In this document: one piece after another, positions 29,849-64,000 of the stretch
Numbering within the stretch: the first letter of the stretch is position 1
How the letters are laid out: each line of letters starts with the position of its first letter
DNA from: Margaritifera margaritifera
Lineage: Eukaryota; Mollusca; Bivalvia; Unionida; Margaritiferidae
DNA: 64,000 bases
Assembly: GCA_029931535.1 (NCBI GenBank)
Contig: JAQPZY010001664.1
Location: 7,784,001-7,848,000 of the forward strand
Direction of reading: 5' to 3'
Notes under the pieces: generated by a model
Database searches by the model: none
Told to the model about the DNA's origin: nothing
What the model saw: the letters and a program-made list of their open reading frames with translations, nothing else
Program-made: the position numbers and the translations under genes

Positions 29849-30355
29849 ATGGCCTGAAGAGATCACCCAGTCCATAATCTCTATGAAGCAAATGAAAATG
29901 GCGACGTTAGACATATTTTACGCCGAAAAATTCTTTCTTAAATTCAGAATAATAATGGCTATATTCTTATTGCAGTATGAAGCAAAGATAAATGTCAAAA
30001 AGTATTGAGTACTCACAAATTTATATTCGAATGTTTTCATGGCTTCATACCAAAAGATCTTGTGATTGGTCATGTAAATGGCGATAAAGCAGACAACAGA
30101 ATATCTAATCTAGAAGCTGTCACGCGGCAAGTAAACAATTTGCATGGCGAAGTTGGTAAACATTAAAAGACAGCGCGCCCAGTGAAAGCAACAGATATTG
30201 AAATCGATGAGCAGGAGATTTTTACATCGATGACTAAGGCAGAAAATGTACTTGGAACTAGCAGACGTTTAATTTTATTTTTGTTGCAGCGGTACAAGAA
30301 GCAAGTCTTATTTGCACATCAAGAGGCTGCAGGTTTTCTTTTCAATTTCCTTTAG
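29849..30355 (+). pseudogene. HNH endonuclease, broken copy 1
   Basis: Starts with TATATATAATG. A stop is in the third codon, with others further on. Between them the frame contains NLYEANENGDVRH (NUMOD4-like), KFIFECFHGFIPKDL and HVNGDKADNRISNLEAVT, the H-N-H core, closely matching the intact gene at 48444. The C-terminal part is longer here (LLQRYKKQVLFAHQEAAG) than in the copy 2 gene, suggesting that copy 2 is truncated. Such enzymes cut DNA and often act as homing or mobility factors. Confidence 0.8.
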
Positions 30356-30480
30356 AACGTCGTGTTTGTAAAATATGGGTTTTTTTATTATTTTTTATTT
30401 TTTAATTTTTTTTTTAATTTATTTTTTTTAATTTTTTTTATTTATTGAACGACCGATTGAAGACGACAATATACTATATA

Positions 30481-30765
30481 ATGGCACTCTGGAGAACCCA
30501 CCCATTGTATAATATATATGAAGCAAACGAGCATGGCGAGACAAGACATGCCAAACTAAAACGTATTGTTTCAAGCCACCCGAAAAAAACGGTTTCGTCC
30601 CAGTCAGAGTATCGGGATTTGATATTGCAGAAAAACAGTGCAAGCACATCGCTTTGTATACGAATGTCATCACCAGCTAATGTTGTAGTGGATCCTAGGA
30701 ACGGAATCAAAACAGACATCAGACTAGAAAACCTTGATGTTGTTACTCAGCAAGAAAACTGCTAA
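30481..30765 (+). pseudogene. Second HNH-endonuclease-like gene, broken
   Basis: Begins at CTATATAATG with ALWRTHPLYNIYEANEHGE and TRH, the same N-terminal NUMOD4-like block as its neighbour, then diverges. A shifted frame shows a weak HRFVYECHHQLM segment where the first family has A-H-I-F-I-F-E-C-H-Y. The H-N-H core is eroded. It is a separate family member and not a direct copy of 29849-30355. Confidence 0.55.
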
Positions 30766-30915
30766 AGAGGTCGCGCAGGAGACTGTAAGCTTCAATAACA
30801 TTAAGAGTACTGTCCAATGCAAACTCAGAGAGTTGCAAGTCTCATGGCTGAGCAATAAGGCAGATGAGATTCAGTCCTATGCAGACAGGAATGACATGAA
30901 GAACTTCTATGATGC
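30765..30915 (+). mobile_element. LINE reverse-transcriptase-ORF fragment
   Basis: The plus frame reads KSTVQCKLRELQVSWLSNKA and DEIQSYADRNDMKNFYDA, the helical segment before the reverse transcriptase domain in Jockey/CR1-type LINEs. It sits exactly where the DNA polymerase gene of copy 1 stops matching copy 2, so it marks the truncation point of that gene. Confidence 0.6.
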
Positions 30916-33501
30916 TTTTTCCATTGTTTTCCCAAAGTCTGTATTGTTCATCAGCTTGAAAAAAATCTTTTTCGAATTTATTTTTTGCTGCGATTTTTTT
31001 TTCAGTATTGAAGTCGATGTAGGGTTTAAGCCAGGCTTCCTGTTTGAATTTTAAAACTCTGTGTACCTGAATAAGATTCAGTCCTAGCTCGATGCATTGT
31101 TTCAGATTTCTATAATGAATCACGTAGCAAGTTTTATCCTGCAGATTTGGAATTAGCTTTGGTACTTTAAAGTTGCCAACACCCAGTTTTTCTTTGAGCT
31201 TTGTAGAATAATCACTTAGCATAGCGTCATCAACGAGCATACTTTCAGCAGCTAAAGGATAATCATTGTGATCATCATGTACTTTAGCAGGGTACTCAAG
31301 ATCGACTTCAAGGTCATCATCGCTGCGTAATAATTCTTCTGTAACGTTTTCTGGTGTCATCCACTTGAAATCAGCAACTGGTAGCTTCTATGACATGACC
31401 CATCGATAAAGATTGTGAGACTCCAGATAGGTAATATATTTTGACTCTTTTTCTGGATCGTATCCTGGCAAAGACTTGTTATTAGCTACAGCATGTCTGT
31501 GTATAATCACTGCAATTCCGCCGCGTATTCCTTTTTCAATAAAATTATGCATATCAACATCTGTGAGAAGCTCGTGCTGAACTCCAATCATTTTGAGAGC
31601 TGCATCCCAAGAAAAACCAGGACAAGAATAATACGAGTCACGGTCCAGCTTGTAATAGGACAAGCAGAGATCTCTAAAGTTTTCAAATACATCAGCAACC
31701 AAAAGCACACCAGTCTTCATATAAAGATTATGATTTTCGCCCATATTTATCATGATGAATTTACTCCAAACATTTTAGCATGATCATAATCAGTATCAAA
31801 AACATTTGTCTCTCTCAGATTGCTGTAAAAGCTTTCTTGCTGTGGCAGGATGTATCATAACATGTTTTCCAGGATGACATGTACTCATAAGGATAAATTC
31901 CTTTGCGCTTGACTAGATCAAGTTTGTCGTCATCAAATTATTGTGCAGTATAATTAAATGCTTTTGTATTTTTAACAAGCTCAACTAGCGACTCATTCAT
32001 AAACTGAAGGTTGTCAATAAAACGCAGGTCACCAAGAGAAAATGAAGTTATTTGGAATAAAAGTAATCCTCTTCTCGAATTTTCCAAAGTGCTTTACAAT
32101 AAGATGTGAATCATAGCCTCTAAGATTATGAAATACTACTGGGATAAATTCAGGTCGTCTTAATTTCAGATTGCATTTATTATGATCAGCGCCACGATAT
32201 TTGCCAGTATAATGACAATGGTCACGAACTATATCTTCGCCAATTTGCTGATTACAAATCCAACACAGCTTGGCCTGTGAAAAGTTTTCTTTGTCCTAAT
32301 GATTAAATATCATCCTTGCTGAGCTAATTTTCTGAATGTAAGTAACCTCGTTAAGGAGACTTTGTATGAACCTCTCGCCAGTTTTCTCCGCGATATAATT
32401 TTATGGGCTTGCTTAGCGCATTGTTGACACAGATTACTTTGAAAGAATATCCACAAGGAACATGCTCCTGATATTTTCGTGTTAAAGATTTATCAGGATT
32501 ACTGTCTGCACCCTCGACAGGAATCAGTAGTGATACAAAATCAGCATAATTATGAAAGGTACCTGGGCCATATTAGAGAATATATAAAATTATGAGGTAT
32601 TATGTTTGTTTATCTGGCATCATACTTTTTGCAACATGAACACAATCTAGTCCGTGAGTCGTAGACAATTCTTCTGTAGAATAGCCATGAAGACCTCTTC
32701 TGAAATAATATAATTTTCCTTTGTACTTGATATATCGGTCATACATTATGCCAGAAAAACTTTTGATCCAGCAGTAGTGACCATGACTGGTGTCGCCATG
32801 AATATAAAGCAAATCAATATTAGCAACATCGCTGCCAAACGAAGAAATATGGAGAGGATATATGTTTGATTTGGCATCTGCACCAAAGACGTTGACAGAG
32901 ATATTATTTTGTCTCCCAAATTTTGAAACATCATTAATCTGAACAGGAAACTTAATGCCAGCAAAATTAACGTATCTTGATGTGGCGCATAATTAAAGAG
33001 CGGATAACACGGACCACATGAAACATTTTTTGTCCTTAATTTTGACATTGACACAGCTCTAGCAATTTTTAATTTTGACTGGTAATTCTAAAAACGAGCT
33101 GCTGCGTAATAGATTGTACTTAGCAGTATTAACATTAGATTTTGAAATATCTTGCAGGATCCAGCCTGACCATTCTCTCTGAAAATTATCAATGCTGTTC
33201 TGAGGAGATGCAAAACGCTTTTGACGTCAAACTTATGATGAAATGCATGAACTGGTTTGGATATGAAATGTGCTTCAGTTTCAGTGTCATCCGCTTGCTG
33301 CAGAAACACGACGCTCATATCCACAAAAAAAGTTTTATGCCGCGATGCAAACGCAACTCCTTAGACAAAATTTGTTTTATGCTTGGCTTTGCTAACCTTC
33401 TAAACTATCAAGCGCTATTAACTTGTCATTTTCTAAAGCAAACATTTTCTCGTGCCGGCAAAGGCCTGCTTGCTCTGTCTAAAGCTCATGTTTGTGCTCA
33501 T
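30916..33501 (-). pseudogene. Polinton DNA polymerase B (copy 1), truncated
   Basis: Starts at TATATATAATGAGC (33501) like copy 2. Recognisable blocks include TETEAHFISKPVHAF near the N terminus, the Exo III region LYMKTGVLLVADVFENF (31690 region), where copy 2 has K-M-D-V, so the catalytic Asp is Gly here, and EDDLEVDLEYPAKVHDDHND downstream. Palm motif B is just reached (NNTDFGKTMEK) before the LINE fragment. Motif C (T-D-T-D-S) is gone. Many frameshifts and stops. Inactive. Confidence 0.88.
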
Positions 33502-33527
33502 TATATATAATAGGGAAGATTATTTCT

Positions 33528-33900
33528 CTAATTGTTAATTTTTAAAGTCTCTAACTGAGTTTCTCGACTGAAGCATGATACGCTATGACGCAGCAGCAAG
33601 TCGCAGTCATAGCAAATGTTGATTGTGCCATGTTTTTTAAGTAGTTGTCTCTGCTCATCCGTAAGCAAAACATGCGTTTTAAACAAATTGTCTGCTCCAG
33701 AAACAGCATTTTATGATATCACATTGAGATCCAAATTAATATATGAATCAGGATTTTCATACAACATCAAAAAGCGATTCTGAATGCTCCATGTAAACGT
33801 CTGTAATATAATTACCATATATTTTACGGCGTTTGCAGACAGCGCAATGGCCAACTCTCTTGTTGACTTGAATACAAACATCATCAGAGCAGGCATGCAT
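33528..33900 (-). pseudogene. PLA2-domain N terminus fused by deletion to a small unknown gene
   Basis: The start is CTGATATATAATGCATGCC. The first ~28 residues (ACSDDVCIQVNKRVGHCAVC...) match the N terminus of the copy 2 PLA2 gene (53680). The sequence then jumps to the equivalent of the 52112-52423 gene (GNYITDVYMEHSES, then VSGADNLFKTHVLLTDEQRQ and LLKKHGTINICYDCDLLLRHS). The deletion removes the rest of PLA2 and the whole integrase. Confidence 0.75.
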
Positions 33901-34186
33901 TATATATCAGCAAAACATAAAAAACCCATAAAAGTATGTACTTAGGACAACAATACCCGGATTTTTTTATTATTATCTTTGGTGCTGCAATTGGCACATA
34001 TTGACTTCATCACAGAACGCCAGTTTTAAGTTTGAGATGAAGTTTCCTCATGACTGTCAGTATTCTTTCTGCATGATAAGCACAACGAATCTGTCATTAT
34101 ATTTGAAATTGACATAAAACACGCTAGCGGTTCACTTTAAATACTAATTTGCTATAGTCATACTAACTTGTTGCAGTTTTCTACCG

Positions 34187-35011
34187 ATTAAGCTTACTAA
34201 AAACTAATTTGTCATTGTCTAATGTTGGTGCCGCTTTAAACTCCAGTAATATATCTAAAGTAGATTTTCTTTGGCAACGTGGTCTGATAAAATAAATACC
34301 GTAAAGTCCATAAGATGAACTATTCATATAGATGAACTATTCATATGCTGAATTTGTGCTGAGTTATAGCGCTAGGAACATATTTTTTGACAGCGTCACA
34401 TGGTGGCAGACCAAACGAATCAAAATATTCTACGTCGCTACTATCTGGCGTGTTTAAAACGGCAAACCAATGTGTTCCAGATTCATGAAAATAATTTTCT
34501 ATGTTTATAACGCAGCTTTCCTTGGCTCTGATTTTTTTCTAGCATTCTATCTTTAGAAAAGACCATTCTATCTTTAGAAAAGACACCTCGAAATGATTTT
34601 ATACCTTTAAGAGTTTTCTCAATGTCAAAATTGCTTACCGGCGCTGGTTCCGGGGTATTGCAATCCTTGCGCTCACTTTTTATACCTTTCATACCACGAC
34701 CAAAAAGCTTGTCAAAAAGTCCAGGCAACACCGCACCAGCAGTACCAGCAGCTAGCAGTGGTAGAAGTGGTAATACTCCGCCTTGTTTTTTAAGTTGTGT
34801 TGCGGATAAATCAAGTACAATACCTTTTTCTGCTACACTTTGGTTTTTTCACTTTGTCATGTTGGCGTTTTGTTAGCATGAGCTTATCGCTGCCAGAAGA
34901 TAAATGTTTTGCTAATAGTCTTATTGACAATGGGCAACCTCTGGAAGCAGCCAGCGCAATGTTTTTACGTTGAGCTTCAGAGAGAGATAAACTAACTTTC
35001 TGATACGACAT
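34187..35011 (-). pseudogene. pX-like core protein joined to adenain-type protease (copy 1)
   Basis: The N-terminal part contains LSLSEAQRKNIALAASRG, LSIRLLAKHL and KLMLTKRQHDKVKK, the L-S-x-x-Q-x-K-K-I-A...L-T-K-x-Q pattern of Polinton and adenovirus-pX-like core proteins. Then come GGVLPLLPLL and LPGLFDKLFGRGMKG. From about 34635 the protease family start appears (SNFDIEKTLKGIKSFRGVFS), followed by ESGTHWFAVLN with the catalytic His and YFDSFGLPP with the acidic residue. The region where the nucleophile Cys is expected reads S-S-Y-G-L-Y-G-I-Y-F-I, so Cys appears replaced by Tyr. Small tandem duplications (34320-34350 and 34540-34580) add damage. The protease would mature capsid proteins. 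Confidence 0.75.
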
Positions 35012-35149
35012 TTCTATGTAAGATGTTTAGACAAAATTTATTGCAGACAAACCAAAACGTATTGCAGCAAACAAAAACTTATTGCAGGAAACAAAAACTT
35101 ATTGCAGGAAAACAAATACATGTCTACAAGTTAAGCAAATATATCTCTA

Positions 35150-35521
35150 CAAGTTAAACGAATACATTTTTTTTTTGCGCCTAAGTTCTCTGCCGCTTGT
35201 TGCGCCAGATATTGTTCCAGAGGCTGCTGCTATTCCTAACGAAACAAGTATTGGTAATATTTTTGGCGCCCATGCTGCAAGAAGTGGTAGGACTGCTGGT
35301 AAAGCGCCGCCCATGTGAGATATTTGTTTGGCCGATAACTTTAGGGTTAAGCCTTTGCCACAGCGTTTTGCTATGCTAAACTTGAGATGCTGATTTTTGT
35401 AAGCTTAAGAATATGTTGACCTTGCTGGAATTGGTTATTTCCAAGCTTCTTATGCGCTGCTGCAAGTGATTGGTGTTGTGATGGCGTAAAAAAAAAAAAC
35501 TTTTACTGAAGTGTAGCTCAT
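35150..35521 (-). pseudogene. Second pX-like core protein (copy 1)
   Basis: Homologous to 54291-54696. It has a start at ATATAATATAAATGAGC. Central hydrophobic LPAVLPLLAAWAP-like residues and the Gly/Ile-rich S-I-G-N-I-F-G segment are visible in shifted frames around 35200-35310. Confidence 0.65.
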
Positions 35522-35536
35522 TTATATTATATCTTT

Positions 35537-36288
35537 TGTTACGACTCTATGGTCTAAGAAAAATGTAACAGAAAGAAAGTGAAACCAACAAATCAAGTAA
35601 AAATCAACAAGCAATTTATTACTAGATAATTAAAATGAAAAATCAAAAAAAGTCACTTACAGTAATGTGTTTTGAAATCCTAATAATCCAATAAGAATGA
35701 TTGTTCTAATCACAAGTCCTAAATATAGAATGTTCCGAATTCACGGCTGTGTCCTTGAATGTTATGATGTGCTAATGGTCTCCAAAGTCCTGATGTACTA
35801 GAAATCTTGATGTGCTGATGTCAAAATGAAGTATTCCAAAATCTCTGAATAAGTTCACCTAAATTCCAAAATTATCAATTAAAAATCCAAAATCCAAAAG
35901 TTTATGAGCACTGTTATAATCCAATGAATATTTAAAATAATTCCTCTCTTAGAATTTGGAATGAATTTTCACAACTGTAATAGCTCTTTACAAGACTGAT
36001 GGTAATGTCAAAACTGAAAAAATGTCCACCAAACATGGTATATATAAAGATTGGTCACATGACAGAATGTTCTAGAATATGAGTCATCTTAATGGAATTC
36101 TAACTGTAAACAAAATTCAACCTTGACCTTCAAATTGAGAAAACATATTGATCAAAACAACCTAATTCAAGGACACTAGTTAAACATGTTTTTCCTGATA
36201 ACATTAAGATTTAAGCAAATATTAAAGTGAAGAAACATTTACAATTTCCTAAAATATTTATAATATTATATAAACATCATACATAACA
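35537..36288. mobile_element. Solo LTR inserted in Polinton copy 1
   Basis: Starts TGTTACGACTCTATGG, ends ATACATAACA, with TG...CA ends in the inverted TGTTA/TAACA form. A 4-bp duplication CTTT flanks it (35533-35536 and 36289-36292); copy 2 has the uninterrupted site near 54710 (TATCGTTGGACAATTC). About 750 bp, no ORF. A relative sits at a different place in copy 2 (57188-57928). Confidence 0.85.
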
Positions 36289-36309
36289 CTTTGGACAATT
36301 CAGCTTCTT

Positions 36310-37170
36310 CTAAACAATAACTGTCATCTTGCCACTAAAAGCATCCAGTGTCAGAAATCTGTCAGCGGTAATTACTGTATAAACATGATAGTTTACGGCT
36401 ACTGCTGGTGCTATAGGTTGAAGAGTCCACTTGACTTCAACATCTGCCATAGAATCTTTTGTTCCGTTCCAAATGCTTAGAAACATCAAAGTGATAAATA
36501 GTATACAGCTTTGCAAATTCATCTAGAGATATTTTGTTCCTGTATCAACGTCCTGATATTTTTGCATAGCTTCCTGAAGCATAAGATACGCTCGCTAATA
36601 ATCTTTCCTAAGCGATGTAAAATTACACTCAAGTTCACGTTCGGGATATTGTCTGCTATTGACTCTGACAGCAATACGAGTCAAATACCTGACTACTTGT
36701 CTCTTGATTTTCATCTCGTGCTGCTGTTTGAAATGCTATAAATATGTGTCTTGGTAGTTCACTGTATGGCAATGTAGCTATTCTCCAGTTCGCAGATAAT
36801 TGCGCTGGTAAATATGTAACACTTTTATAAACGCGCATCTGTTCAAAATAAAGTTTGTTGCTAAACCTGGACAAAAGATGATCCAATTATAGCGTATGCT
36901 AAATAGAAGGCGTTATTTTTTGCATCGACAGCGATAGCTTTGTAAAAACAAATTGTCCGTCACCAACACCAGCTGGACTATGCATGTACGTAATAGGATC
37001 AGATCTTTCCAAAACCAGCGTGTGCTTAACGCCTCTATAAACTGTATCAATGTCGCGACAAAAACCAAAAACGGAAGTTAGTGGCAACATCATGCAAACT
37101 TCAGTGAGAGCACGCCTCATTTCAAAGCCAACATCATAATTTCCGTTTTCTGGATCTACATATCTGAAAA
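36310..37170 (-). pseudogene. Double-jelly-roll major capsid protein, C-terminal two thirds (copy 1)
   Basis: Pieces read FRYVDPENGNYDVGFEMRRA, VFGFCRDIDTVYRGVKHTL, LERSDPITYMHSP, RVYKSVTYLPAQLSANWRIA, SELPRHIFIAFQTAARDENQ and finally the conserved end DRFLTLDAFSGKMTVIV. These match the Polinton capsid family. The N-terminal third, present in copy 2, is missing because of a deletion ending near 37170. Confidence 0.85.
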
Positions 37171-37199
37171 GGTTCCTTATATATTTAGTAAGGACCCAC

Positions 37200-38009
37200 G
37201 GCGAGTAAAAAGCACAAAACTAACATATTATCTGATTACAAGATATTTGATGCGACTGGATGTTGACATTAATTTGCTTGTTGCAGCTATTAAATATTGC
37301 AGAGGTGCACTCAGTTGATGGAACATTTACAGAGCTGTCAGAAAACGTTTTCTTCAAGGATCCACCGCAGGCTGATGCTTAGTTCAGAAAAGTAATAGAA
37401 GACCAAACAATTGACAGTAGCTTTTTCATAGAATTCTTGGAAAGAAACCCAACTCTTTTCAATCCAATTCACAGTATGCTTGCAGTAAAGTGATCTGAAG
37501 CAGAAAAGTCACAACATGAGCTTGAGTCTGAACAAACAGAGGTGAATATTATTCCTGCACCTGATCCCATTCCTGTTGATGAAAAACAACATGAAGCAGA
37601 AAAGTCGCAGACAAAGATTGATGATGAAAAAAAGTTAGCCGAAGGGCTCTACAAGGTTGTTAAGTATTCACAAAGACGGATCAAAAGGCTTTTTCCTGTA
37701 CAGTGCTATATTAAAGAAACGACTAGAGCAGGACTTAGTATGAACGCTCTTCACATTTCAAAAATACCTAGCGGTTACTTTAATAATGAGCCTGAGTTTA
37801 CAAAAGAGCAGATGAGAGAACTTGGACCTTATCGAGAAGTATATATTGATAGTTATCTCAGACAAGTTCAAGAGTCCAATATGATTCCTTACCGAAAAAT
37901 AGTAAACAAGATTGATGCGGAATTTCCACATGATGAACCTTTTGTTCCCAAAGAAGAGATACAACCAGAGGGCGAAGAAATAATTGGCTGGCGTTATCAT
38001 ATAATATAA
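37200..38009 (+). pseudogene. Repeat-domain protein, C-terminal part (copy 1)
   Basis: The segment from about 37240 aligns with 62100-62640 of copy 2 (INLLVAAIKY, FTELSENVFFKDPPQADA). After a stop near 37490 an open frame 37542-38009 continues for 155 codons with IPAPDPIPVDEKQ, a Lys/Glu-rich linker, YKVVKYSQRRIKRLFPVQCY, and an acidic end EEIQPEGEEIIGW. That last part has no counterpart in copy 2. No known family. The A/T-rich TCATATAATATAAAAG after it is the promoter-like element of the next gene. Confidence 0.55.
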
Positions 38010-38017
38010 AAGATATC

Positions 38018-38569
38018 ATGGATTTCAAGCACATTAACAAACATCTTGACAAGCAAACGCGCGATGAACTTATTGCATATTATCGCAGCTATCACAAACG
38101 AGCCTACTGTTTTAATAAGTCTTATAAGAATTACAAGCGCCTATTATTTTTCTTGTCTGCTGTTCCATTGGCGATCACTACGGCCGGAGTTGCCAGTGCA
38201 GGTGCTTTCTTAAATCCTTTTCTACTGATTATATCTGGCGTTGGCATTGCAGCTCAGGCTTCTGCAGAAAGCTAGAACCAAAAATTCAAAATAAAATGGC
38301 TATGTGCAAATACGCTTACATTACGTACACAATAATAATAAATCAGGTTTAACATGGCTGATTTGGTCAAGGAGTTTCGCATGATACATAATATTCTTGC
38401 AGAATTAAGTCATATGTGTGTTGTCAAATACGAAACAATTTATACAAAAAAGAAAAAAAATATCGGCATCGCAGCGTTCGAAATAAACTTGTTGATACTG
38501 GTTATACTAAAGCAGAGGAAAATGGCGGATTTTAAACCTAAATGGAAGGTAAAGGCAGGTGATCACTAA
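38018..38569 (+). pseudogene. Polinton membrane protein (copy 1)
   Basis: Starts MDFKHINKHLDKQ, then DELIAYYRSYHKRAY (identical in copy 2), two hydrophobic segments rich in Thr/Ala/Gly (LLFFLSAVPLAITTAGVASA and NPFLLIISGVGIAAQ) and, past a frameshift at about 38272, QNKMAMCKYAYITY and DLVKEFRMIHNILAEL. The layout of N-terminal helices, a membrane hairpin and a C-terminal helical bundle recurs in other Polintons; the role is unknown, perhaps a virion or host membrane. Confidence 0.6.
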
Positions 38570-38602
38570 AATTTGGTACCATCTATGCTTGTCTTGACAA
38601 AA

Positions 38603-38899
38603 TCATACAAAGGACTTCTTGCCGCCAAGCTTATTGTACTCTTCTCCTAGCGCGCGTATGGATCTTTCTAGTTCTATGGCGATAAATGTGTAAAAATCAA
38701 AGTGTTCTAGATGTTCCTTTGACGTCCGATAAATAATTTTGTGAGCGTCCTTGACAAATTTGTAAGCGCCGTTTAACGTTCTTATTTGTTGTATCATCCA
38801 GCTGACGTGTTCAGATTTCCAACCTAGTGGAAATTTTACATTGGCGACGTATGCGCGCTCATGTGCAGCCGTTATTAATTTTGAATCGTATTCAAACAT
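38603..38899 (-). CDS. Small helical Polinton protein, intact in copy 1
   Basis: 98 codons starting at AGTATATAATG. It contains DSKLITAAHERAYVANVKFP, GWKSEHVSWMIQQIRTLNGA, and the C-terminal ERSIRALGEEYNKLGGKKSF. Predicted mostly helical with no transmembrane segment or known domain. Only its last 30 or so residues survive in copy 2 (63240-63350). It lies between the membrane protein and the YqaJ-type nuclease, with the same relative order in both copies. Confidence 0.6.
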   Translation of the reverse strand: MFEYDSKLITAAHERAYVANVKFPLGWKSEHVSWMIQQIRTLNGAYKFVKDAHKIIYRTSKEHLEHFDFYTFIAIELERSIRALGEEYNKLGGKKSFV

Positions 38900-39143
38900 T
38901 ATATACTACATTTTTTTATTTGTCTCTAATTCGAGTACGAGTTGTTGCAGTTTTGATTAGGCGTGCTTAATCGTCCTGCCATGATCAGGTTCACGAACAA
39001 TATGATTGTATGAAATTTTTTAAAAATTCCAGAGCAACACGGCGACCAGCTTACCGCTAGGATACTTTTTTGTGATACTATCTATGGCGTCAGAAAGGCA
39101 ATCAGGTTGGTCGTGGACGCTTGTGATAATATACTCGTATTCT

Positions 39144-39410
39144 CTATGCAGATCTTTCTATGGGAAAAAAGTGATAATTCTGCTTCAGTAGATTCGACAA
39201 GGTCAACATATTTGCTGCCAGTGATGTTAGCGTGCCAAGTTTTTTTCTGGCTAAATCGTCTGGCGTCGCAAACGGACAGATGCCAAGAACCGTGGCCAAC
39301 TCGGAATCACCAACTGTTACCGACATAATCGAATACCATTCTGGCGACTTCTGCTTCATCTGATGTGATTTCAAAAAACGTTTCCAAGATAGCATTCACG
39401 TCCGTTATTT
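39144..39410 (-). pseudogene. YqaJ-type viral recombinase/exonuclease, N-terminal fragment (copy 1)
   Basis: Contains KSHQMKQKSPEWYSIMSVTV and GDSELATVLGICPFATPDDL-ARKKLG, the S-x-E-W...(G)(G/D)S-E-x-A-x-x-L-G start of the lambda-exonuclease/YqaJ family. The catalytic D-x-E-x-K part is absent. The ATATAA upstream element is present, but the A-T-G expected at its end reads A-C-G (about 39408), so the start is mutated. Such nucleases recombine or process viral DNA ends. Confidence 0.65.
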
Positions 39411-39425
39411 ATATTATAAGATTTC

Positions 39426-39885
39426 TTCAATTCATAAACAATTAGTATACAACAATATGGCTGCATTTTCGAAAATACTAGTAAGAGGCCAAATTTTAAA
39501 AAATATGTTTGTAAAAGCCCTCTCTCAAACTGGGTGCTAGCCCTGCTGAATAATTTAGTCCCTCAGCAGCTAAGGAATATATCGGAATCGCATTACCACT
39601 GCACCTGGTCGCTTGTGTGAACGGTTTCAAACGCGGGTTTTTAGCCCATAACTTTTTAAACTTCCTGCAACTCTTTGGTTGTGTTCACATCGGAAATTAA
39701 AGCAGTCCCCCTAACTGGACTAAAGCCCAAATGCCAATACAAGTGTGGCCGATCCTGTGAGACAACAGACCTTGAACCAGCTAATTATACATAGGATTCA
39801 TTATATATATATAATACTATACTAGGTTTCCAAGTTTATGGTCAGGCAAATTTGCATACTTATGTTACTAATAATAGATCTGCAA
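39426..39885. other. Host sequence after Polinton copy 1
   Basis: No gene recognised. No right terminal repeat of copy 1 can be identified here. Confidence 0.4.
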
Positions 39886-40130
39886 TTAAAGGAAGTAACT
39901 CGTGTATGCCAATATTTCCGTAATCATGGAGGTAATTCGTGTGTGCCAAATATTTCAGTAATCATGGGAGGTAAATCGTGTGCGCCATATTTTCACCAAA
40001 CTGACAAATAAAAAGCTAATTGTAACTATTGGTAGTATGATAAAATAGGGGTACCGGAAACATATACGATTTCCCAGGTTCCGGCCGAGCGATAGCGAGG
40101 ACAAGGACCTGGAAAATCATGTATGTGTTT
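39886..40130. repeat. Short tandem block followed by a hairpin
   Basis: Three copies of an about 50-bp unit (GGAGGTAATTCGTGTGTGCC with TATTTCAGTAATCATGG) at 39890-39990. A hairpin follows at about 40045-40125, with arms ACATATACGATTTCCCAGGT-TCC and its complement around a GAGCGATAGCGAGGAC loop. Confidence 0.65.
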
Positions 40131-42486
40131 TAATACGATTATTATAGCATACTACTTGTTACCAGCCTTCAAAATCGGTTTGTCACAGAGGATGGTTGAA
40201 CCAGTGAGCTAGTGATATACGTTGGACCATATCACCGTCGAATGAGGCCAGCAAGTGGGTATAATTTACGAATATATGAGTGCCCCATAGCCATAAACAC
40301 ACACACACACATACACACATCTGAGAATGCATTCATGCAGACAGATTAATTATTTCTTTTTGTCGCATGTTCAACCCCAATTTTCCATAAATGACTTTTA
40401 ATTTATATCCATGTAAAGATTATTTTTACATGGAATATGTATCTGATCAAGTGTAATATTATATGCTAAGATAACAAAATTATATTGCATTTGTATGATG
40501 CCAAATTGTTTACAAAACTGAGAACAAGTGTGAACTCGAAATCGATTTTCAGCTCAACGGTTTTTCTCATCACCGAATTATGTCCTTCCCCATTACTTGG
40601 TGAAAAGAATACCAGCTCCTAATTCTGACATAGTTTGGCCAGTTTAACAAGAAATCCTTAAAAGGTCGTTTTAACGAATTTGTCTCGTGATAGAAAGTTG
40701 GTTAAAAAAAAAAACAGACTATGTAATTAAAATATTGGCATTGCGATAAAACAGATGGAATGGTCAGTTACTATAGTTTTTTGGAGTTTTGTAGAACTTG
40801 TTCTTCGAAAAAAGACATTTTTCTGTCTTACGCATCGAATCACATTCCTAGCCAAATTCTAAACAGTTTTTGATATTTTAGCTGGAGTTTTATAGCAAAT
40901 CAAAAGAGCTCAGATAGAAACAAACTCATGAAAAAGACACGCTGGCGGTAATCTCTATTTACATTTTCAGTTTGTTGAACAAAAGAAAGCCTGCCATGCA
41001 AGCCCCTGTAGAACAAATTTTATACAGTCGGACAAATGTTGTATACTTGGGTAAACAGACCACTTTCTAGTAATGGCGAAAAGGAAACTGTAAAGTTTGT
41101 ATTACTGTAAATATTTATATTTTTAGAATATTAGTTTTTAGACTGATTCAAGTTAGAAATAAATGAATGAATAGATTGAAAAGTTGTCATCCCAGAAAGA
41201 ACGATATGTTCACTACTCTAACAACTTAATGGAGTCTGGACCAGTCAAACTCCAGGGAACTTTTAATAACATTTAACAATCAATAGACCTGCTAGACTCT
41301 GGAATATTTTGAAATTGTATTACTAAATCAAATGGAGTTGGTAAAGTGCAACAATTGTGGTATTGAAAAGTCACCATACAAAATGGAACAATTGAAAACC
41401 AAATCACCAAACGAAATGGAAGAAATAAAAACCATATACCAACCTTGTAAAGAAGATTGCATATTAAAAGAACAGTTTTACTGGGGAAGACCGAAAGCAT
41501 ATTAACGTGTGCTAAACGATTTTTTTTAATTACAGATTAAAGTGTTTATCCGATAAAATAATTAGATACAGATTTATGCTCATATACAGCACCCACCCAC
41601 CACCCTTCTCCACTCATTACGAATCTACTCGTTCATATACGTGTTATTTTTTACAAGCAAAAAATACCATTCGGTGCATAACTGAATTAGTATCTTTGTT
41701 TCTTCCATATCTGCATATTCTGCTTTTTTTTTTCTGACTCAACTTAGTAACATTTAGTGAGTTTTGGGAACAACTAGTGACATTGTGTGACAATTAGTTG
41801 GTGACACTTGGTGATAATCAATTAGTTAGTACCTAAATAGTTATGCACAAACAGTACAACTATTGTCCTAACTCAACAAAGGACACATGGAAGTTAATGC
41901 AAACTGTTAAAAGCAAATGCCTTAACGAGATGGATGAATTTAACTCACTAAAAGCAGCAAGCAAATTGATATCAATTTCACAATCAGAGAAAAGACAGAA
42001 AGGGGATATACAACAGATGGAATTTTTACAATATTATGGAAGAAAGCCCGGGTGTTAAAAAAAAAGTAACAAAAGAAGAGGTATACAAGCTTCTGAAAGA
42101 AGAACGAAAAATGCAAAAGAAAAATTAGACAATTTATTCGATAAACCACGGACATAAAATCACGTCTGAACAAATTCTTTATTTTACAACGGATTGAGCA
42201 AAGACAATGGTAAGAGATCGACGAGGATCTCAAACAAACGGAAAGAAATTGCGTAGCACCTTAGAAGAAGAATTAGAATCAGAACAAACAGACGATGTAA
42301 AAGAGGAAAAGGTATTATTTTGGACACTGAATATATCCAACTTTCTGTTGCTTATTGATAATGGCTACGTCATTTACATATTGGAGTCATTGCCAAAACC
42401 AAATGTACGACATGAAAACAAAAAGCAGAAAGGCATGCTTTTCTTAAAAAGGAATCAAAGTTGGAGACTTTGCAAATCAAAATAAT
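40131..42486. other. Host non-coding sequence with unassigned short frames
   Basis: Frames at 41843-42058 and 42207-42485 (+) are Lys/Glu rich and could be parts of one unrecognised ORF broken between 42058 and 42207. No domain or splice structure supports them. The remainder is AT-rich. Confidence 0.35.
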
Positions 42487-43978: not shown

Positions 43979-44003
43979 TATTATTATTATTATTATTATT
44001 ATT

Positions 44004-48227: not shown

Positions 48228-48443
48228 CACATTTTACTAATTAGAGTTGACTGCTTATGATACCCAACCAGTCACCCATTATATATCAGGATTAGATTAA
48301 AACTCAGCCAAACAACCTTCCATTATATTTCAGGATTACACAAAAATTTCAGCCTTTGGTCAGCAGATGATGATTTCTTCTATATCAGGATTACATAAAA
48401 CTGCATGTTTTTTCAATTAGAGATATAAATATACTTATATATT
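48228..48443. repeat. Left terminal inverted repeat of copy 2
   Basis: CACATTTTACTAATTAGAGT at the outer edge matches the complement of 63981-64000 (CACATACTACTAATTAGAAT). CAACCAGTCACCCATTATAT-ATCAGG is common to both ends. Three subrepeats of ~45-57 bp carry TATATxTCAGGATTA and ACACAAAA. The inner edge runs into the promoter element of the HNH gene. Confidence 0.88.
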
Positions 48444-48446
48444 ATG
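48434..48446 (+). promoter_or_regulatory. TATA-ATG start element of the HNH gene
   Basis: TTATATATTATG: the A/T element ends in the start codon. The same sequence occurs, inverted, at the last gene (63835-63848), because both lie at the inner edge of the terminal repeats. Confidence 0.6.
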
Positions 48447-50913: not shown

Positions 50914-52088
50914 TACCTCGCCTAGTAAACTCTATATAAAATGCTCGCCACAATTTTCTCCGCGATATAATTTTATTGGCTTACTCAGTTTGTCACTAAC
51001 GCAGATTAGTTTGTACGAGTGGCCGCAAGGAACATGCTCCTGGTATTTTCTGGTAAAGGACCTGTCTGGATCGTTATCTGCGCCAGCAATCGGAACAAGC
51101 AGAGATTCAAAATCAGCATAGATAATAAACGGAACTCTTGTCATATGACAGAGGTTTTTAAATTTTGATACGTTACTTTTTTTGTCTGACATGATAGCAT
51201 TTACGACGTTAGCGCAATTTCTGTCATGCTCTGTTAACAACTCTTCTTTCGAAAACCCATGAAGACATTCTGCAGTAAACATTTTTTGCCATTATGGTTA
51301 TTCTATTGGCCGCACATTATTTTTGAAATTTTTTTAATCCAAACGTAATGCCCGTCTTTTGTGTCATTATGAACATACAGCAAATACACATCAGCAACAA
51401 TTTTATTGTCGTCATCGCATGTTACCGCAGAAATATAAAGAGGAAAAATACTTGCATTATCATTAGCGCCAAATACATTTATCGAAATATTATTTACTCG
51501 CTCAAATTTTGGCGCGTCAATAATCTGAACTGGAAAAGCGATTCCTGAAAATTTAACGTTCTTTGATACGCGACATATTTACTACCTCTATTGGCATTTT
51601 TTACTGCAGGATACAGCGCCGATAGCATCGCCTGCATAAAACACTTGTTGTCATTGTTCTGAACATTGATGCAACCCTTGCTGATTTTTATTTTTGCATG
51701 AAGATCCAAATATGACTTGCCACGCAGAGGATTATATTTTGAAGCGCTTAAGGCGCATCTAGAAACGCCAAGCAAAATCCAGTCAGAACCTTCTCTTTGA
51801 AAATTATCAACCTTGTCTCTAAGCGAACTGAAAACGCTTTTGAGATCAGAATTCATGTCAAAGGCTCGCACTGGCTTCGAAATAAAATGCGCCTCAGTTT
51901 CAGTAGTATTGTCCATCTTTGCAAACACGACGGTAATGCCGACAGAAAACTTTATACTTTATGATAGCTTGTTCCGTTGCCATAGCCAAATCGTCATATT
52001 AAAGCAGCCTGCGCTGACGCATAATAAACGTTTTATCGTAGCAGGCAAAGGCTTGATCACGTAGTACGAACCTCATATTTGTGCTCAT
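48904..52088 (-). pseudogene. Polinton DNA polymerase B (copy 2), frameshifted
   Basis: Family: virus/organelle-type B DNA polymerase. Starts at ATATATATAATGAGC and ends at TAG 48904-48906. Blocks in order: N-terminal IKISKGCINVQNNDNKCFMQ; Exo I FIIYADFESL (51140 region); a Cys/His treble-clef insert CWICEEPLGDD with CHFTGRYLGAAHNKCNLRL (50750); Exo II RFIDSLQFMNDL; Exo III LYLKMDVLLLADVFEKF; motif A YIDENSLYAYAISQKLP; motif B NQVFGKTMENIR (49500); motif C LLLTDTDSLCYEI. All catalytic motifs are still visible, but at least six frameshifts or stops and a TA microsatellite (50881-50911) interrupt the gene. Confidence 0.92.
50881..50911. repeat. (TA)n microsatellite inside the polymerase gene
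   Basis: About 15 TA units between the treble-clef block and the Exo I block. Absent at the corresponding place of copy 1. Confidence 0.9.
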
Positions 52089-52098
52089 TATATATATG
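52086..52098 (-). promoter_or_regulatory. TATA-ATG start element of the polymerase gene
   Basis: On the minus strand CCATATATATAATGAGC. The equivalent place in copy 1 (33499-33511) reads TATTATATATAATGAGC. Confidence 0.6.
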
Positions 52099-52111
52099 GT
52101 AGATTATTTCT

Positions 52112-52423
52112 CTAATTGTTAATTTTTAATATCCCTAACAGAGTATCTCGGCTGAAGCATGATACGCTATGGCGCAGCAGCAAGTCGCAGTCATAGCAAA
52201 TGTTGATTGTGCCATGTTTTTTAAGTAGTTGTCTCTGCTCATCCGTAAGCAAAATATGCGTTTTAAACAAATTGTCTGCTCCAGAAACAGCATTTTCTGA
52301 TATCCCATTGAGATTCAAAGTAATATGTGATTCAGGATCTTTATACAGCCACCTGACATCATCAAAAAGCAATTCTGGAAGATCTATGTAAACGTCTGTA
52401 ATATAAACAATTGTGTCTGACAT
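52112..52423 (-). CDS. Unknown small Polinton protein with a C-x2-C motif
   Basis: 103 codons, intact. Contains IVYITDVYIDLPELLFDDVR, VSGADNLFKTHILLTDEQRQ, LLKKHGTINICYDCDLLLRH and a C-terminal LKINN. Start within TTATATATCATG. A copy 1 relative survives fused to a PLA2 start (33528-33900) with near-identical C-terminal half. The C-Y-D-C pair could bind metal or sit in a beta-hairpin. No known family. It lies 24 bp upstream of the polymerase start and 24 bp from the divergent gene at 52448. Confidence 0.6.
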   Translation of the reverse strand: MSDTIVYITDVYIDLPELLFDDVRWLYKDPESHITLNLNGISENAVSGADNLFKTHILLTDEQRQLLKKHGTINICYDCDLLLRHSVSCFSRDTLLGILKINN

Positions 52424-52447
52424 GATATATAACGTTGTTTGATAAAA

Positions 52448-53363: not shown

Positions 53364-53680
53364 ACTTTTGTCGCATCGTTTTTTTCCCTACGGTGATCTC
53401 TGTTGCAAATGTCATGCCGCATTGCAGTGGCGTCTGCTTGATTCTATGGTTGTTCACCAGGAAGCGGTTAATCATTCGCGACAAGTTGTTTATCCAAAGG
53501 ATTCCGTGGGCCAGTATATTTATGTCCTGGCAAAGTCAAGCCGCCCTTTGGCCTAGGAAGTTTTACAATAAGCGCATGAAGGTGAAGAGCACTACCACAT
53601 ATTTTACGGAGTTTGCAGCCAGCGCAATGGCCAACTATCTTGTTGCCTTGAATACAAATATTATCAGAGCAGGCATCCAT
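53340..53680 (-). pseudogene. Parvovirus-like phospholipase A2 domain protein
   Basis: Starts GTTGATATATAATGGATGCC (53680). The N-terminal part has Cys pairs (CIQGNKIVGHCAGCKLRKIC), then KGGLTLPGHKYTGPRNPLDK, the calcium-loop block of capsid-associated PLA2, two stops, and ATAMRHDICNRD with the His-Asp catalytic pair near 53410. After a frameshift the D-K-S-M-L-D-E-L helix of the family runs directly into integrase sequence. In virions such a domain helps membrane penetration. This gene is inactivated. Confidence 0.8.
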
Positions 53681-53690
53681 TATATATCAA
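53678..53690 (-). promoter_or_regulatory. TATA-ATG start element of the PLA2 gene
   Basis: TGATATATAATGG on the minus strand, identical over these bases to the outward-facing copies inside the right terminal repeat and nearly identical to the copy 1 PLA2 start at 33898-33910. Confidence 0.6.
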
Positions 53691-54290: not shown

Positions 54291-54696
54291 TTAAGCAAAC
54301 ACATTTTTATTCTTTCTTCGTTTATGTTTTCTGGCGCTTGTTGCCTTTTCCGTAGCGCCAGATACTGTTCCAGAGGCTGCTGGTATTCCTAACGAACCAA
54401 GTATTGGTAATATATTTGGTGCCCATGCTACAAGAAGTGGTAGGACTGCTGGTAAAGCGCCGCCCATGTGAGATATTTGTTTGGCCGATAACTTTTAAGG
54501 TTAAGCCTTTGCCATAGAATTTTGCTATGCTAAGCTTGAGATGCTGATTTTTCATAAACGTAAGAAGATGTTGTCCTTGCTGCAATTGGTTATTTCCTAG
54601 CTTTATGGACACGCCCGCACGCTTCTTATGCGCTGCTGCAAGTGATTGGTGTTGTAATGGCGTAAAAAAAAAATCTTTTACTGAAGTGTAGCTCAT
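54291..54696 (-). pseudogene. Second pX-like core protein (copy 2)
   Basis: Starts ATATAATATAAATGAGC. Residues: FFFTPLQHQSLAAAHKKRAG, VSIKLGNNQLQQGQHLLTFM, KNQHLKLSIAK and GKGLTLKVIGQ, the same pattern as its downstream neighbour. One frameshift near residue 73 moves to QISHMGGALPAVLPLLVAWA and PNILPILGSLGIPAA, then a basic end ARKHKRRKN, stop at 54291. It probably binds and condenses packaged DNA; the hydrophobic centre is usual for the family. Confidence 0.7.
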
Positions 54697-54728
54697 TTAT
54701 ATTATATCGTTGGACAATTCAGCTTCTT

Positions 54729-56153
54729 CTAAACAATAACTGTCATCTTGCCACTAAAAGCATCCAGTGTCAGAAATCTGTCAGCGGTAATTACTGTATA
54801 AACATGATAGTTTACGGCTACTGCTGGTGCTATAGGCTGAAGAGTCCAATTGACTTCAACATCTGCCATAGAATCTTTTCTGCGTTCCAAAATGCTTAGG
54901 AGCATCAAAGTGATAAATAGTATACAGCTTTGCAAATTCATCTAGAGATATTTTGTTCCTGTATCAACGTCCTTATATTTTTTGCATAGCTTCCTGAAGC
55001 AAAAGATACACTCGCTGATAATCTTTACTAAGTGGTGCAAAATTACACTAAAGTTCACGTTCGGGATATTGTCTGCTATTGACTCTGACAGCAATGCGAG
55101 TCAAATCCAAGTTGTCAAATATCTGACTGCTTGTCTCTTGATTTTCATCTCGTGTTGCGGTTTGAAATGCTATAAATATGTGACTAGGTAGTTCACTGTA
55201 TGGCAATGTAACTATTCTCCAGTTCGCAGATAATTGTGCTGGTAAATACTTAACACGTTTATAGACTCGCATTTGCTCAAAATAAAGTTTGTTGCTAAAC
55301 CTGGACAAAAGATTATCCTATCCTAGTACATGATAAATAGAAGGTGTTATTTTTGCAACGACAGCGATAGCTTTGTAAAAACAAATTCTCCGTCATCAAC
55401 ACCAGCTGGACTATGCATTTACGTAATAGGATCAGATCTTTCCAAAGCCAGCGTGTGCTTAACGCCTCTAAAAACTATATCAATGTCGCGACAAAAACAA
55501 AAAATGGAACTTAGTATCAACATCATGCAAACTTCATTGTGGCCATCAGTGAGAGTGCGCCTCGTTGCAAAGCCAACATTATAATTTCCGTTTTCTGGAT
55601 CAACAAAGGCAGTACGGACACCCTAGCAAATTCGACCTGCCACTGCAGCAGTAGCAGCAGCAGTAACAGCATCATCAATCAATTCAGGTGCTTGTTTGTA
55701 CTTTTTGCTAACTGCTACATTGTTAGTATCCTTATACCAGAACACATTTGTTGCTGAACTTCTGCTGTGGTCATCACTCATCGAAATCAAATTCGTGATG
55801 GTGCCGGCAGCAGGCAGATTGTTGCTGATGTCCTCAACTGTTTGATTATTAAGTTGATATCGCGCCGTCTTAAACAAGCTCAAACCATTGTTGACAAGTG
55901 TCACGATTGTTTTAGCAGCAACATTGCCAGGTGGAGCAGCAGTGGTTTGAAAATGACCTCTGACTTCAAGAAAAGCTTTATGAGGCAACAAGTAAACGTC
56001 TTCATCTCGCGTGTCAATAATGCTGGTTCCACGTTTGTTCATTTGATTCGAATCTTTGTCCAAGTATTCAACATATTCGTATTCGGTTGTTGATTCGTCA
56101 ATGGGTGCTTCATCAAAAAGCTTGAAATACTCAGGAGTAAATCTGGACAGCAT
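54729..56153 (-). pseudogene. Double-jelly-roll major capsid protein (copy 2)
   Basis: About 475 codons, normal length for the family, in four frames. N-terminal frame 56153-55623: MLSRFTPEYFKLFDEAP, YLLPHKAFLEVRGHFQT, KTIVTLVNNGLSLFKTARYQ and LISMSDDHSRSSATNVFWYK. Middle: FVDPENGNYNVGF, FCRDIDIVFRGVKHTLALER. Then frame 55308-55048 (LPAQLSANWRIVTLPYSELP, IFIAFQTATRDENQ, NLDLTRIAVRVNSRQYPE) and the end 54941-54729. It would form the trimeric hexon-like capsomer. Frameshifts inactivate it. Confidence 0.88.
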
Positions 56154-56169
56154 GTTTATACATCCAGGT

Positions 56170-56576
56170 TACACAAATAGTCTCTTTAGACTAGATCCTG
56201 CCTTAATATTTGAGAGGTTAGGCAGCGATGTGGACACCAATAACATATTTAGTTCATTCATAATTTCTTGGCCGAGTTTAGACAATATTTTTGGCTGCAC
56301 TAGTATTCACACGCTCAGCTTCTTTTGTTGGTTCGATTTCTTTGATGATTTCTTTTATTGGCCCCATAAAAGCTGTGGCGCTGGCTTTCTCATAATCTTA
56401 GACGCAAATTTTTGTCCAGCTACTGACCCTACTGTTGAAGCAGCACTTTTTGAAGCGCTACTGACAAGTGGAGCGAATCGTTTGACTATGCCTGGGACTA
56501 CCCTAAAAATGTTTGAAAACAGCGATGATAAAAATCCTCCTATGATTTTTCTGCGCTTAATTCGTATTGGCTTCAT
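56170..56576 (-). pseudogene. pVI-like minor capsid protein
   Basis: Starts MKPIRIKRRKIIGGFLSSLF, then SNIFRVVPGIVKRFAPLVSS and TVGSVAGQKFASKIM: an N-terminal basic patch and an amphipathic/hydrophobic helix, like the pVI-type minor capsid proteins of adenovirus and Polintons. Broken after residue 73. It lies between penton and capsid genes. Family assignment is by layout and composition. Confidence 0.55.
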
Positions 56577-56599
56577 TTATACAGCATGGTTACATAGTT

Positions 56600-59955: not shown

Positions 59956-59967
59956 GTATATATAATG
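59955..59967 (+). promoter_or_regulatory. TATA-ATG start element of the fibre gene
   Basis: GTATATATAATGAGTC. Because TATATA is nearly palindromic it may also have served the divergent ATPase gene. Confidence 0.55.
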
Positions 59968-60946
59968 AGTCATTATACAGCTTTTGGCAGTTATTGACAG
60001 TGTTGAATCAAGCACAAGGTCAACAGTTTCTAATGCAGAACTTAACAGACGCTTGCTAAAACCTGGCGACACGATGTCTGGACAGCTAAACATGTCTTCG
60101 CAAAAGATTATAAATGTGGCTGCACCAACAAATAATGCAGATGCGGTTGATAAACAGTATGCAGATAAATATGTAAATGCCAAAGTGCTGTTAACAGATA
60201 CCAAAACAAATTTTCCTCGAGGACGCTTACTTTCTCCAGGACAAAACTTGGCATCGGAAATCCTTTGCAATGAAATGTTAGTGTCAGCGCCATATGTTTT
60301 ACCGCCAGCTGACGGAACTATGACAGGCAACAGCGATATGAATTCTAAAAAAATTACAAAATTAGCTGCGCCAGAAACTGAAAAGATGCAGCTAGAAAAT
60401 CATATGCAGCTACGAAATCTAGGTGCTCCTACAGATAATGCAGATGCGACAACAAAACTGTATGTGGATTCCAAACGAATAAAAATATACAATTGTGCAT
60501 ATTCCATCGCTGTCGTCCAATTCTGTTAATCGCGGCGGATTTGTAGCATCCGCATCATCGGAATATTCAGCAGCCTTTAGGAGCACATCTGGTTTTTGCT
60601 GACCACATATCTACTAGCGAATGGGCTACAGCAGGCGTGTATAATAATTTTGGGATCAGAATAGATCGTCGTGTGGATGTTACTATTTTGGCGTATTCAA
60701 CTTAAAGGCAGATCAGTTGCAACTGAATACATCAACAATTGGCATCTAGAAGCGTCCAATGACAGCGCTAATTGGACCACACTTTACACAAGTATGGATA
60801 CATTTTATTCAGCTCTGGATACTTTTGATATTGCAAGCCCTGGCACGATAAAATATCGCCTCTGCATATTGTATTGCGTTTCTGCGATGCCAGGCAATCC
60901 CGGTCTGACTTATTTTCAGATTTTTACGCTAGATGATCTTATGTAA
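59965..60946 (+). pseudogene. Fibre-like protein with phage-type shaft and discoidin-like head
   Basis: Start ATG 59965; a frameshift after about seven codons leads into the long frame 59984-60529. It contains two copies of a shaft unit: LKPGDTMSGQLNMSSQKIIN with VAAPTNNADAVDKQYAD, and DGTMTGNSDMNSKKITKLA with LGAPTDNADATTKLYVD. This is the M-x-G-x-L-x-M-x-x-x-K-I-x-x-x-x-x-P-x-x-x-x-D-A-x-x-K-x-Y-V repeat of tail fibres. Shifted frames after 60529 read FVASASSEYSAAFRS, STSEWATAGVYNNFGIRID and INNWHLEASNDSANWTTLYT, resembling an F5/8-type C (discoidin) fold, ending YFQIFTLDDLM. It would bind a host surface. Confidence 0.72.
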
Positions 60947-63230: not shown

Positions 63231-63239
63231 TTTGGTGCC

Positions 63240-63350
63240 ATCTAAACTTGTCTTGACAAAATCGTACAAGGACTTCTTTCCGCCAAGCTTATTGTACTCT
63301 TCTCCTAACGCGAGTCTGGATCTTTCTAGTTCTAGTTCTATGGCGATATA
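63240..63350 (-). pseudogene. Remnant of the small helical protein (copy 2)
   Basis: The last ~35 residues, including ELERSRLALGEEYNKLGGKK, correspond to the end of 38603-38899. The rest is deleted, joining it to the YqaJ-type remnant. Confidence 0.6.
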
Positions 63351-63526
63351 TACTTACTAAGCTTTCTTTTAGCAATATCATGTGCAGTTGCAAACGGGCA
63401 GATGCCAAGGACTGTAGCCAATTCCGAGCCACCAACTGTTGCAGATAACTAAGAATTCCATTCTGGCGACTTCTGTTTTACCTGATGAGATTTTACGAAC
63501 GTATCCAAGATTGAATTCAGATCCAT
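63350..63526 (-). pseudogene. YqaJ-type nuclease, N-terminal fragment (copy 2)
   Basis: Starts at AATATAATGGATC. Reads MDLNSILDTFVKSHQVKQKS, PEWNS, stop, LSATVGGSELATVLGICPFA and HDIAKRKL, then is cut by the deletion. The G-G-S-E block is canonical here (G-D-S-E in copy 1). Confidence 0.65.
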
Positions 63527-63543
63527 TATATTATATGATATCT

Positions 63544-63837
63544 TCAAATCAGAAAGTCAGCATGCTTGGTGGAAAGACTCCTTGCTTTTTGTTGAAGCTC
63601 TTTTTCTAGTATGTCGTATTCAAAAGACCATTTCGACCCAGTTAAACGTGAAAACGTTTCTTGATGCAACCCTTTGCAACACATACTAAAAATCGTTGGG
63701 GCAGCACCAGTCCATGTCGAAGCAGACTTTGTTGTTTTAAACTTACGTCTGAAATCATTTTCAAGACAGTGCGCTATAACTGGCTGGGCTGTTACCTTGT
63801 ATTGCGCGCAGTTTGCGTTGTAATAAAATCCAGTCAT
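63544..63837 (-). CDS. Unknown Polinton protein next to the right terminal repeat
   Basis: 97 codons from ATG 63837, which sits at the end of CTTATATATTATG. Residues: TGFYYNANCAQYKVTAQPVI, HCLENDFRRKF, STWTGAAPTIFSMCCKGLHQ, TGSKWSFEYDILEKELQQ. An upstream in-frame ATG at 63981 exists, but the extra 48 residues translate terminal-repeat sequence. Mirrors the HNH gene at the other end: same promoter element, same distance from the end. No known family. Intact frame. Confidence 0.55.
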   Translation of the reverse strand: MTGFYYNANCAQYKVTAQPVIAHCLENDFRRKFKTTKSASTWTGAAPTIFSMCCKGLHQETFSRLTGSKWSFEYDILEKELQQKARSLSTKHADFLI

Positions 63838-64000
63838 AATATATAAGTATCTTTTTATCTCTAATTGAAAACACATTGCATTTTTATCTAATCTTGATAT
63901 ATAATGGGAGGCTTGTTGGCTGACGTTTTTGTGTAACCCTGATATATAATGGGTGACTGGTTGGCTATCATAAACAGTCAATTCTAATTAGTAGTATGTG
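63838..64000. repeat. Right terminal inverted repeat of copy 2
   Basis: Complement of the left repeat. It contains two outward-facing TTGATATATAATGGGAGG and CTGATATATAATGGGTGAC motifs in units of about 50 bp. One subrepeat fewer than the left end. May continue past the window. Confidence 0.88.

Follow-up and report, generated by a model that had tools for sequence, protein, structure and literature searches.

The 64,000-nucleotide stretch of contig JAQPZY010001664.1 analysed here (the window) holds two decayed, homologous Polinton remnants, A at approximately 29700-39850 and B from 48228 to the window end, in which the start codons of several unrelated genes form the last part of a shared nine-nucleotide motif, TATATAATG. 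With moderate confidence we interpret this motif as the core promoter of the Polinton family represented: a compact initiator abutting the ATG, made two-part in a subset of genes by an upstream box, AATTAGAGA, and predicted to leave messengers with little or no 5' leader. As the sample comprises two homologous remnants, statistics drawn within the window, though strong, describe one family. To our knowledge, neither the expression of Polinton genes in animals nor their dependence on helper viruses is settled, and a two-part motif locked to start codons offers a handle for screening related elements and large DNA viruses of the same host.

Enrichment and positions of the start-codon motif

The motif TATATAATG occurs 17 times on the two strands of the window, against a mean of 1.27 and a largest value of 5 in 100 dinucleotide shuffles. 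Its copies are distributed unevenly, with none in positions 1-28900, nine in remnant A, one between the remnants and seven in remnant B, and AT content is 62 to 65% in all four of these regions. The 16 copies within the elements surpass the output of Markov models trained on the elements themselves, for which means of 0.99, 1.9 and 3.1 and maxima of 6, 7 and 8 were obtained at orders 3, 4 and 5, respectively (200 runs each). Among 9-mers ranked by bias towards the elements TATATAATG stands first, with 16 copies there and one in the remaining 37.3 kb.

Eight of the exact copies are located at listed gene starts. In remnant A these are the starts of an HNH-type gene (29843..29851, plus strand, ATG 29849), a second HNH-like gene (30475..30483, plus, ATG 30481), a polymerase (33499..33507, minus, ATG 33501), a small Cys-containing gene (33898..33906, minus, ATG 33900) and an unknown gene beginning MFEY (38897..38905, minus, ATG 38899). 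In remnant B they are the starts of the polymerase (52086..52094, minus, ATG 52088) and of the small Cys-containing gene (53678..53686, minus, ATG 53680), together with a softer site (59959..59967, plus, ATG 59965) that is putatively linked to the intact fibre-like ORF starting at 60074, in another frame. At the small Cys-containing gene of both remnants the motif lies within an exact 12-mer, TGATATATAATG, whose five copies comprise these two and three in the terminal repeats of remnant B; when up to one mismatch is allowed, 12 sites are found against 1.07 expected.

Close variants occupy further starts, all in remnant B. TATATTATG is present at the HNH gene (48438..48446, plus, ATG 48444), where it lies within TATATATTATG, and, in the other terminal-repeat copy, at an unknown gene beginning MTGF (63835..63843, minus, ATG 63837), a soft start in having an in-frame ATG 39 nt upstream, at 63876. 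TATATCATG marks a gene of 103 aa from its ATG (52421..52429, minus, ATG 52423), labelled p114 after its 114-codon stop-to-stop frame; ATAATATAAATG the MSYT gene (54694..54705, minus, ATG 54696); TATAAACATG a capsid-like gene (56151..56160, minus); TATAAATG the MKPI gene (56574..56581, minus, ATG 56576); and ATAATATAATG a putative YqaJ-like gene (63524..63534, minus, ATG 63526).

An earlier sequence-only reading had named the eight exact starts and five of these variants (48444, 63837, 52423, 63526 and 54696), and all 13 read as claimed. Its account of a motif that occupies either strand, recurs in the two copies and precedes genes of unrelated kinds is likewise borne out, and the motif is far above chance. 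The description as a start-codon element is not supported in that form, the motif not being confined to start codons; as a full tally the list was incomplete, since nine of the 17 exact sites lie outside the listed starts, six of them in terminal-repeat sequence and three elsewhere (39801, 44418 and 63040, each on the minus strand). The core is thus a DNA element used at starts, though not only there.

Many copies of the motif are not independent, given the homology of the two remnants and the origin of 48444 and 63837 from a single promoter duplicated in the terminal repeats; the spread of the motif was counted in families of genes. The entire window contains just 15 ORFs of at least 120 aa, and because so few long ORFs remain, start codons had to be inferred: the list was compiled by eye, and support other than the motif exists for the capsid-like start (from homologues) and the HNH start alone. 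From 27 candidate rows we obtained 18 families, after removal of 54941 and 36522 (inside the capsid-like gene) and 34541 (no clear start); the A-copy starts 29849, 33501, 33900, 35011, 35521 and 38018 were kept outside the 18. The homologous A-copy starts 29849, 33501, 33900 and 35521 were excluded from family and comparison groups alike, the other dropped rows being placed in the comparison group. On this list, TATAT[ACT] abuts the ATG in 8/18 families (exact TATATA in five, TATATT or TATATC in three more) against 9/972 other element ATGs, and the looser TATAW occurs at -10 to -5 in 14/18 families against 44/972. A motif-blind comparison of ORFs pointed in the same direction: in those of at least 40 aa, TATATA or TATATT abuts the ATG in 5/106 from the elements and 0/115 from elsewhere, while TATAW is found in 12/106 and 4/115, respectively, changing to 11/67 and 2/42 at 60 aa and to 3/11 and 0/4 at 120 aa.

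The HNH gene allows the position of the motif to be related to coding. Among 29 differences between its A and B copies in the first 120 nt, 19 fall at third codon positions, and coding therefore starts at the ATG touched by the motif; the protein has a firm Pfam match to HNH_3 (E 1.6e-16) and a sub-threshold match to NUMOD4 from residue 3. Because coding begins at that ATG, a standard TATA box is excluded there, as an RNA starting 25-30 nt downstream of the motif would lack the start codon. The sequence-only reading had argued from placement against an ordinary TATA box, and for the HNH gene, the one gene where this was examined and where TATATA or TATATT abuts the ATG at which coding starts, the argument held.

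The upstream box, the terminal repeats and the ends of homology

The second component, AATTAGAGA, has six copies in the 64 kb, against 1.07 expected and a largest value of 3 in 100 shuffles, all of them starting 29 or 32 nt ahead of an ATG that bears the motif. The 29-nt spacing is seen at 29820..29828 (plus, ATG 29849), 48415..48423 (plus, ATG 48444), 52109..52117 (minus, ATG 52088) and 63858..63866 (minus, ATG 63837), and the 32-nt spacing at 33525..33533 (minus, ATG 33501) and 38923..38931 (minus, ATG 38899). Merging homologous copies leaves three independent lineages, namely the terminal repeat, the polymerase and the unknown 38899 gene. At both polymerase copies part of the box is constrained by coding, because it overlaps the stop codon of the upstream gene; gene spacing in remnant B is tiny, the polymerase being preceded by a 23-nt gap and two divergent ATGs being separated by 24 nt. 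When ATGs were drawn at random for 13 families, three families had an exact 9-mer in common at one offset (within 3 nt) in 12 of 20,000 draws from the elements and in 12 of 20,000 from the flank. The box-bearing subset includes the polymerase, in agreement with the suggestion of the sequence-only reading that the motif is not a late-only signal. Another candidate, a TTGAAGA box upstream of HNH2, MNNS and YqaJ, has 18 copies in the window and was set aside.

Remnant B possesses terminal inverted repeats, the left at 48228..48446, to the extent that the window allows it to be matched, and the right at 63838..64000, where it is cut by the window end. Their match takes in the start codons of the two outermost genes (48444, plus, and 63837, minus) and stops there: 34 of 36 positions agree at -33..+3, identity is 66% over -130..-34, and nothing is alignable beyond the ATG. 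Six TATATAATG units reside in terminal-repeat sequence, four facing outward and none with a long ORF behind it. Three (29724-29732, plus, ATG 29730; 29782-29790, minus, ATG 29784; 29785-29793, plus, ATG 29791) are in the segment of remnant A (29724..29793) that aligns with the left repeat of B. One outward-facing unit is in that left repeat (48277..48285, minus, ATG 48279), and two, with a 45-nt period, are in the right repeat (63898-63906 and 63943-63951, plus, ATGs 63904 and 63949). No right repeat of remnant A was found in 38801-48300, other than a short separate inverted repeat. This lies beside the left end of A (29548-29673), with one arm matched at 40124-40155, and was taken for a separate small element rather than part of the remnant.

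Homology between the remnants also changes at promoters. For the HNH gene, A/B identity is 83% over -33..+3, declining to 75% in the following 120 nt and to 70% when 300 nt are taken. At the polymerase, identity passes from 92.5% upstream through 86% over the promoter to 59% in the first 300 nt past the ATG, recovering to 72-75% in pieces further in, so that, judged at 33480-33560 and 52070-52140, the two remnants resemble mosaics with a breakpoint at the promoter. Because homology of the terminal repeats and of the polymerase breaks off at the promoter or start codon, these two junctions suggest that genes may have been swapped behind shared promoters.

Known promoters and competing explanations

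In the mechanism that we propose, TATATA (or TATATT or TATATC) abutting the ATG would act as the initiator, with RNA beginning in or just before it, so that messengers would carry almost no leader. The box 29 or 32 nt before the ATG marks a subset comprising the polymerase, the HNH gene adjacent to the terminal repeat and two unknown genes, and would probably set expression class or timing; it is absent from presumed virion genes, which often bear looser forms of the initiator such as TATAAATG. Each terminal repeat of remnant B would supply the promoter of its outermost inward-facing gene, ending at that gene's start codon.

Several observations weigh against this interpretation. Nine exact sites lie away from listed starts, and that list was drawn up with the motif in view; the motif-blind test is weaker, its signal being diluted because spurious ORFs are included. 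Four of the 18 families (MSYQ, MGRR, MYDS and MADL) lack even the loose form, as do the A copies of MSYQ and MNNS (MDFK). Once the offset rule for the upstream box is dropped, 79 of 5,000 sets of random stretches also had a 9-mer common to three. The promoter stretch is clearly better conserved than its surroundings in just two of five comparisons, the terminal repeats and HNH: that of the polymerase, at 86%, does not exceed the 92.5% upstream, that of the 33900/53680 gene, at 78%, compares with 79% in the 120 nt that follow, and that of MSYT has 72% against 78% and 86% in coding sequence. Genes of both remnants are broken, and the evidence comes from one family.

By anatomy, the closest described analogue is the late promoter of asfarviruses, which depends on a TATATA placed from -1 to +5 relative to the RNA start (PMC5294985). 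Relative to the start codons of asfarviruses, TATATA is found chiefly between 0 and -20 (PMC5974111), and in two intermediate genes of these viruses the stretches -25 to -15 and -9 to +9, counted from the start codon, are conserved (PMC5294985). Shared with the window are TATATA at or adjoining the start codon, as in five of the 18 families, and another conserved block some 25 nt further upstream, seen in asfarviruses at those two intermediate genes. In the asfarvirus late promoter the upstream sequence, TATTT, occupies -15 to -11 relative to the RNA start, whereas the window has AATTAGAGA; asfarviruses also encode their own RNA polymerase. The RNA start of the window elements is a prediction. 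The sequence-only reading had named the poxvirus late promoter as the best-known parallel. Vaccinia TAAAT(G/A) does resemble the proposed promoter in setting the RNA start signal over the start codon and leaving no 5' leader (PMC5294985), but TAAATG is contained in only two of the 18 families (54696 and 56576), and the asfarvirus late promoter is nearer. Judged by its anatomy, the element is built like an initiator promoter of the asfarvirus or poxvirus type, with membership in neither established.

Repetition of a motif before the genes of a Polinton-related or selfish element has precedents in virophages, EMALEs and transpovirons, whose promoters match those of a giant virus (PMC8547959, PMC10945749, PMC11788076). 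EMALE virophages have type-specific promoter motifs (PMC8547959), and among the EMALE types a response to CroV is confined to the one bearing the CroV motif (PMC10945749); a pacmanvirus transpoviron has early and late motifs, the latter being the TATATA of its host virus (PMC11788076). Their hosts are protists and a helper virus is known for several, unlike the window elements, for which none is known. Linear virus-like elements of yeast similarly place a short box 20-40 nt before each start codon, though with ATNTGA as its sequence and an RNA polymerase of the elements' own; the passages available describe no TATATA joined to the ATG (PMC6211774). A mimivirus-type late motif is given in PMC11464507. 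For Polintons themselves, two passages of a paper on vertebrate Mavericks contain no promoter analysis (PMC8097293), a paper on cryptophyte Polinton-like viruses does not use the word "promoter" (PMC12220804), and no report of a promoter motif for an animal Polinton was found in the partly covered open-licence literature.

Two alternatives would refine the core-promoter interpretation and can hold together with it. Transcription by host RNA polymerase II, with AATTAGAGA near -30 in the role of a TATA box and TATATAATG as initiator, is in our estimate rather unlikely: a start 29 or 32 nt before the ATG approximates the distance of a TATA box if RNA starts at the ATG, but the sequence of the box is not that of a TATA box, and in a scan of -45 to -15 at 22 starts six had it exactly, while the other 16 showed at least three mismatches. 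Slightly less likely is a helper-virus promoter, with a large DNA virus of the asfarvirus and not the poxvirus kind co-infecting the host and supplying the RNA polymerase that transcribes the family, as for virophages and transpovirons. The virus-type or helper-virus transcription system considered in the sequence-only reading would be compatible with the data. Polintons are usually considered to rely on the host nucleus, and convergence on TATATA is easy because it is short and AT-rich. Supporting a helper are the asfarvirus late and intermediate promoters and the transpoviron motif described above, as well as an asfarvirus-like virus described from abalone (PMC7067878), which would matter if the host is a mollusc; AATTAGAGA, on the other hand, differs from the early motif, AAAATTGA, named in the papers cited. 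Unlikely again, as the more elaborate proposal, is an animal virophage: a Polinton family with its own two-class, virus-type promoter code, made of AATTAGAGA and the ATG-fused TATATA initiator, in which further copies of the core occupy the terminal repeats. An asfarvirus-like virus co-infecting the host would have expressed such a family through its RNA polymerase, and the promoters would mark module edges.

A putative binding site for an element protein acting in replication or regulation, repeated in the terminal repeats and also overlapping starts, would account for the six exact sites that are terminal-repeat units with no long ORF, and for the identity of TGATATATAATG between three sites in the B terminal repeats and the 33900/53680 gene. 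We consider it improbable, as the copies at genes adjoin the ATG in the reading direction, an arrangement that a general binding site does not need. Base composition, or a favourable context for translation in AT-rich DNA, gains something from the commonness of TATAW within 12 nt of an ATG (65/994 element ATGs and 70/1304 in the left flank) and from the A found at -3 in 12 of 12 aligned start sites. This explanation is disfavoured already and in our view very improbable: the left flank, of like AT content, has no exact site in 28.9 kb, Markov models fall short of the observed count, and translation context leaves AATTAGAGA unexplained.

Gene content of the remnants and minor features

The labels PolB, PLA2, fibre, YqaJ, protease and integrase are partly provisional, some of them following the sequence-only reading. 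Hallmarks of Polinton/Maverick elements, besides terminal inverted repeats, are a protein-primed family B DNA polymerase, a double jelly-roll (DJR) capsid protein, an A32-type ATPase, an adenovirus-type protease and an integrase. One piece of remnant B matched DNA_pol_B_2 (E 0.0014, 18 bits, under the curated cut-off of 25.8), and two other polymerase pieces had no Pfam match. A Pox_A32 match (E 0.0023) was below cut-off and the protease piece reached E 0.13; Pfam returned no match for the integrase piece or for the piece examined of the PLA2-labelled gene. The gene at 63526 we take to be YqaJ-like, its piece in remnant A giving no Pfam match.

Searches of viral contigs for related elements yielded no relative of one polymerase piece or of an alignment of 19 capsid sequences, and 0 matches to the terminal-repeat array pattern; prokaryote genomes likewise gave none for the alignment. 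No homologue of the HNH protein was found at E 0.001. The two-part pattern matched at least 119 stretches of viral contigs, which are probably for the most part chance matches, the pattern being of low information. Public assemblies contain 24 relatives of the capsid-like ORF (55623-56153), with identities of 45-61% and two located on contigs exceeding 1 Mb; the sole relative scanned, P0016, gave a DJR-like match below cut-off. In PHROGs, the fibre-like ORF (60074-60529) is similar to families of phage head decoration and tail fibre proteins, with a best E of 4.5e-11. Between the remnants, seven 62-bp units are arrayed head to tail at 42861-43298, with 96% matches.

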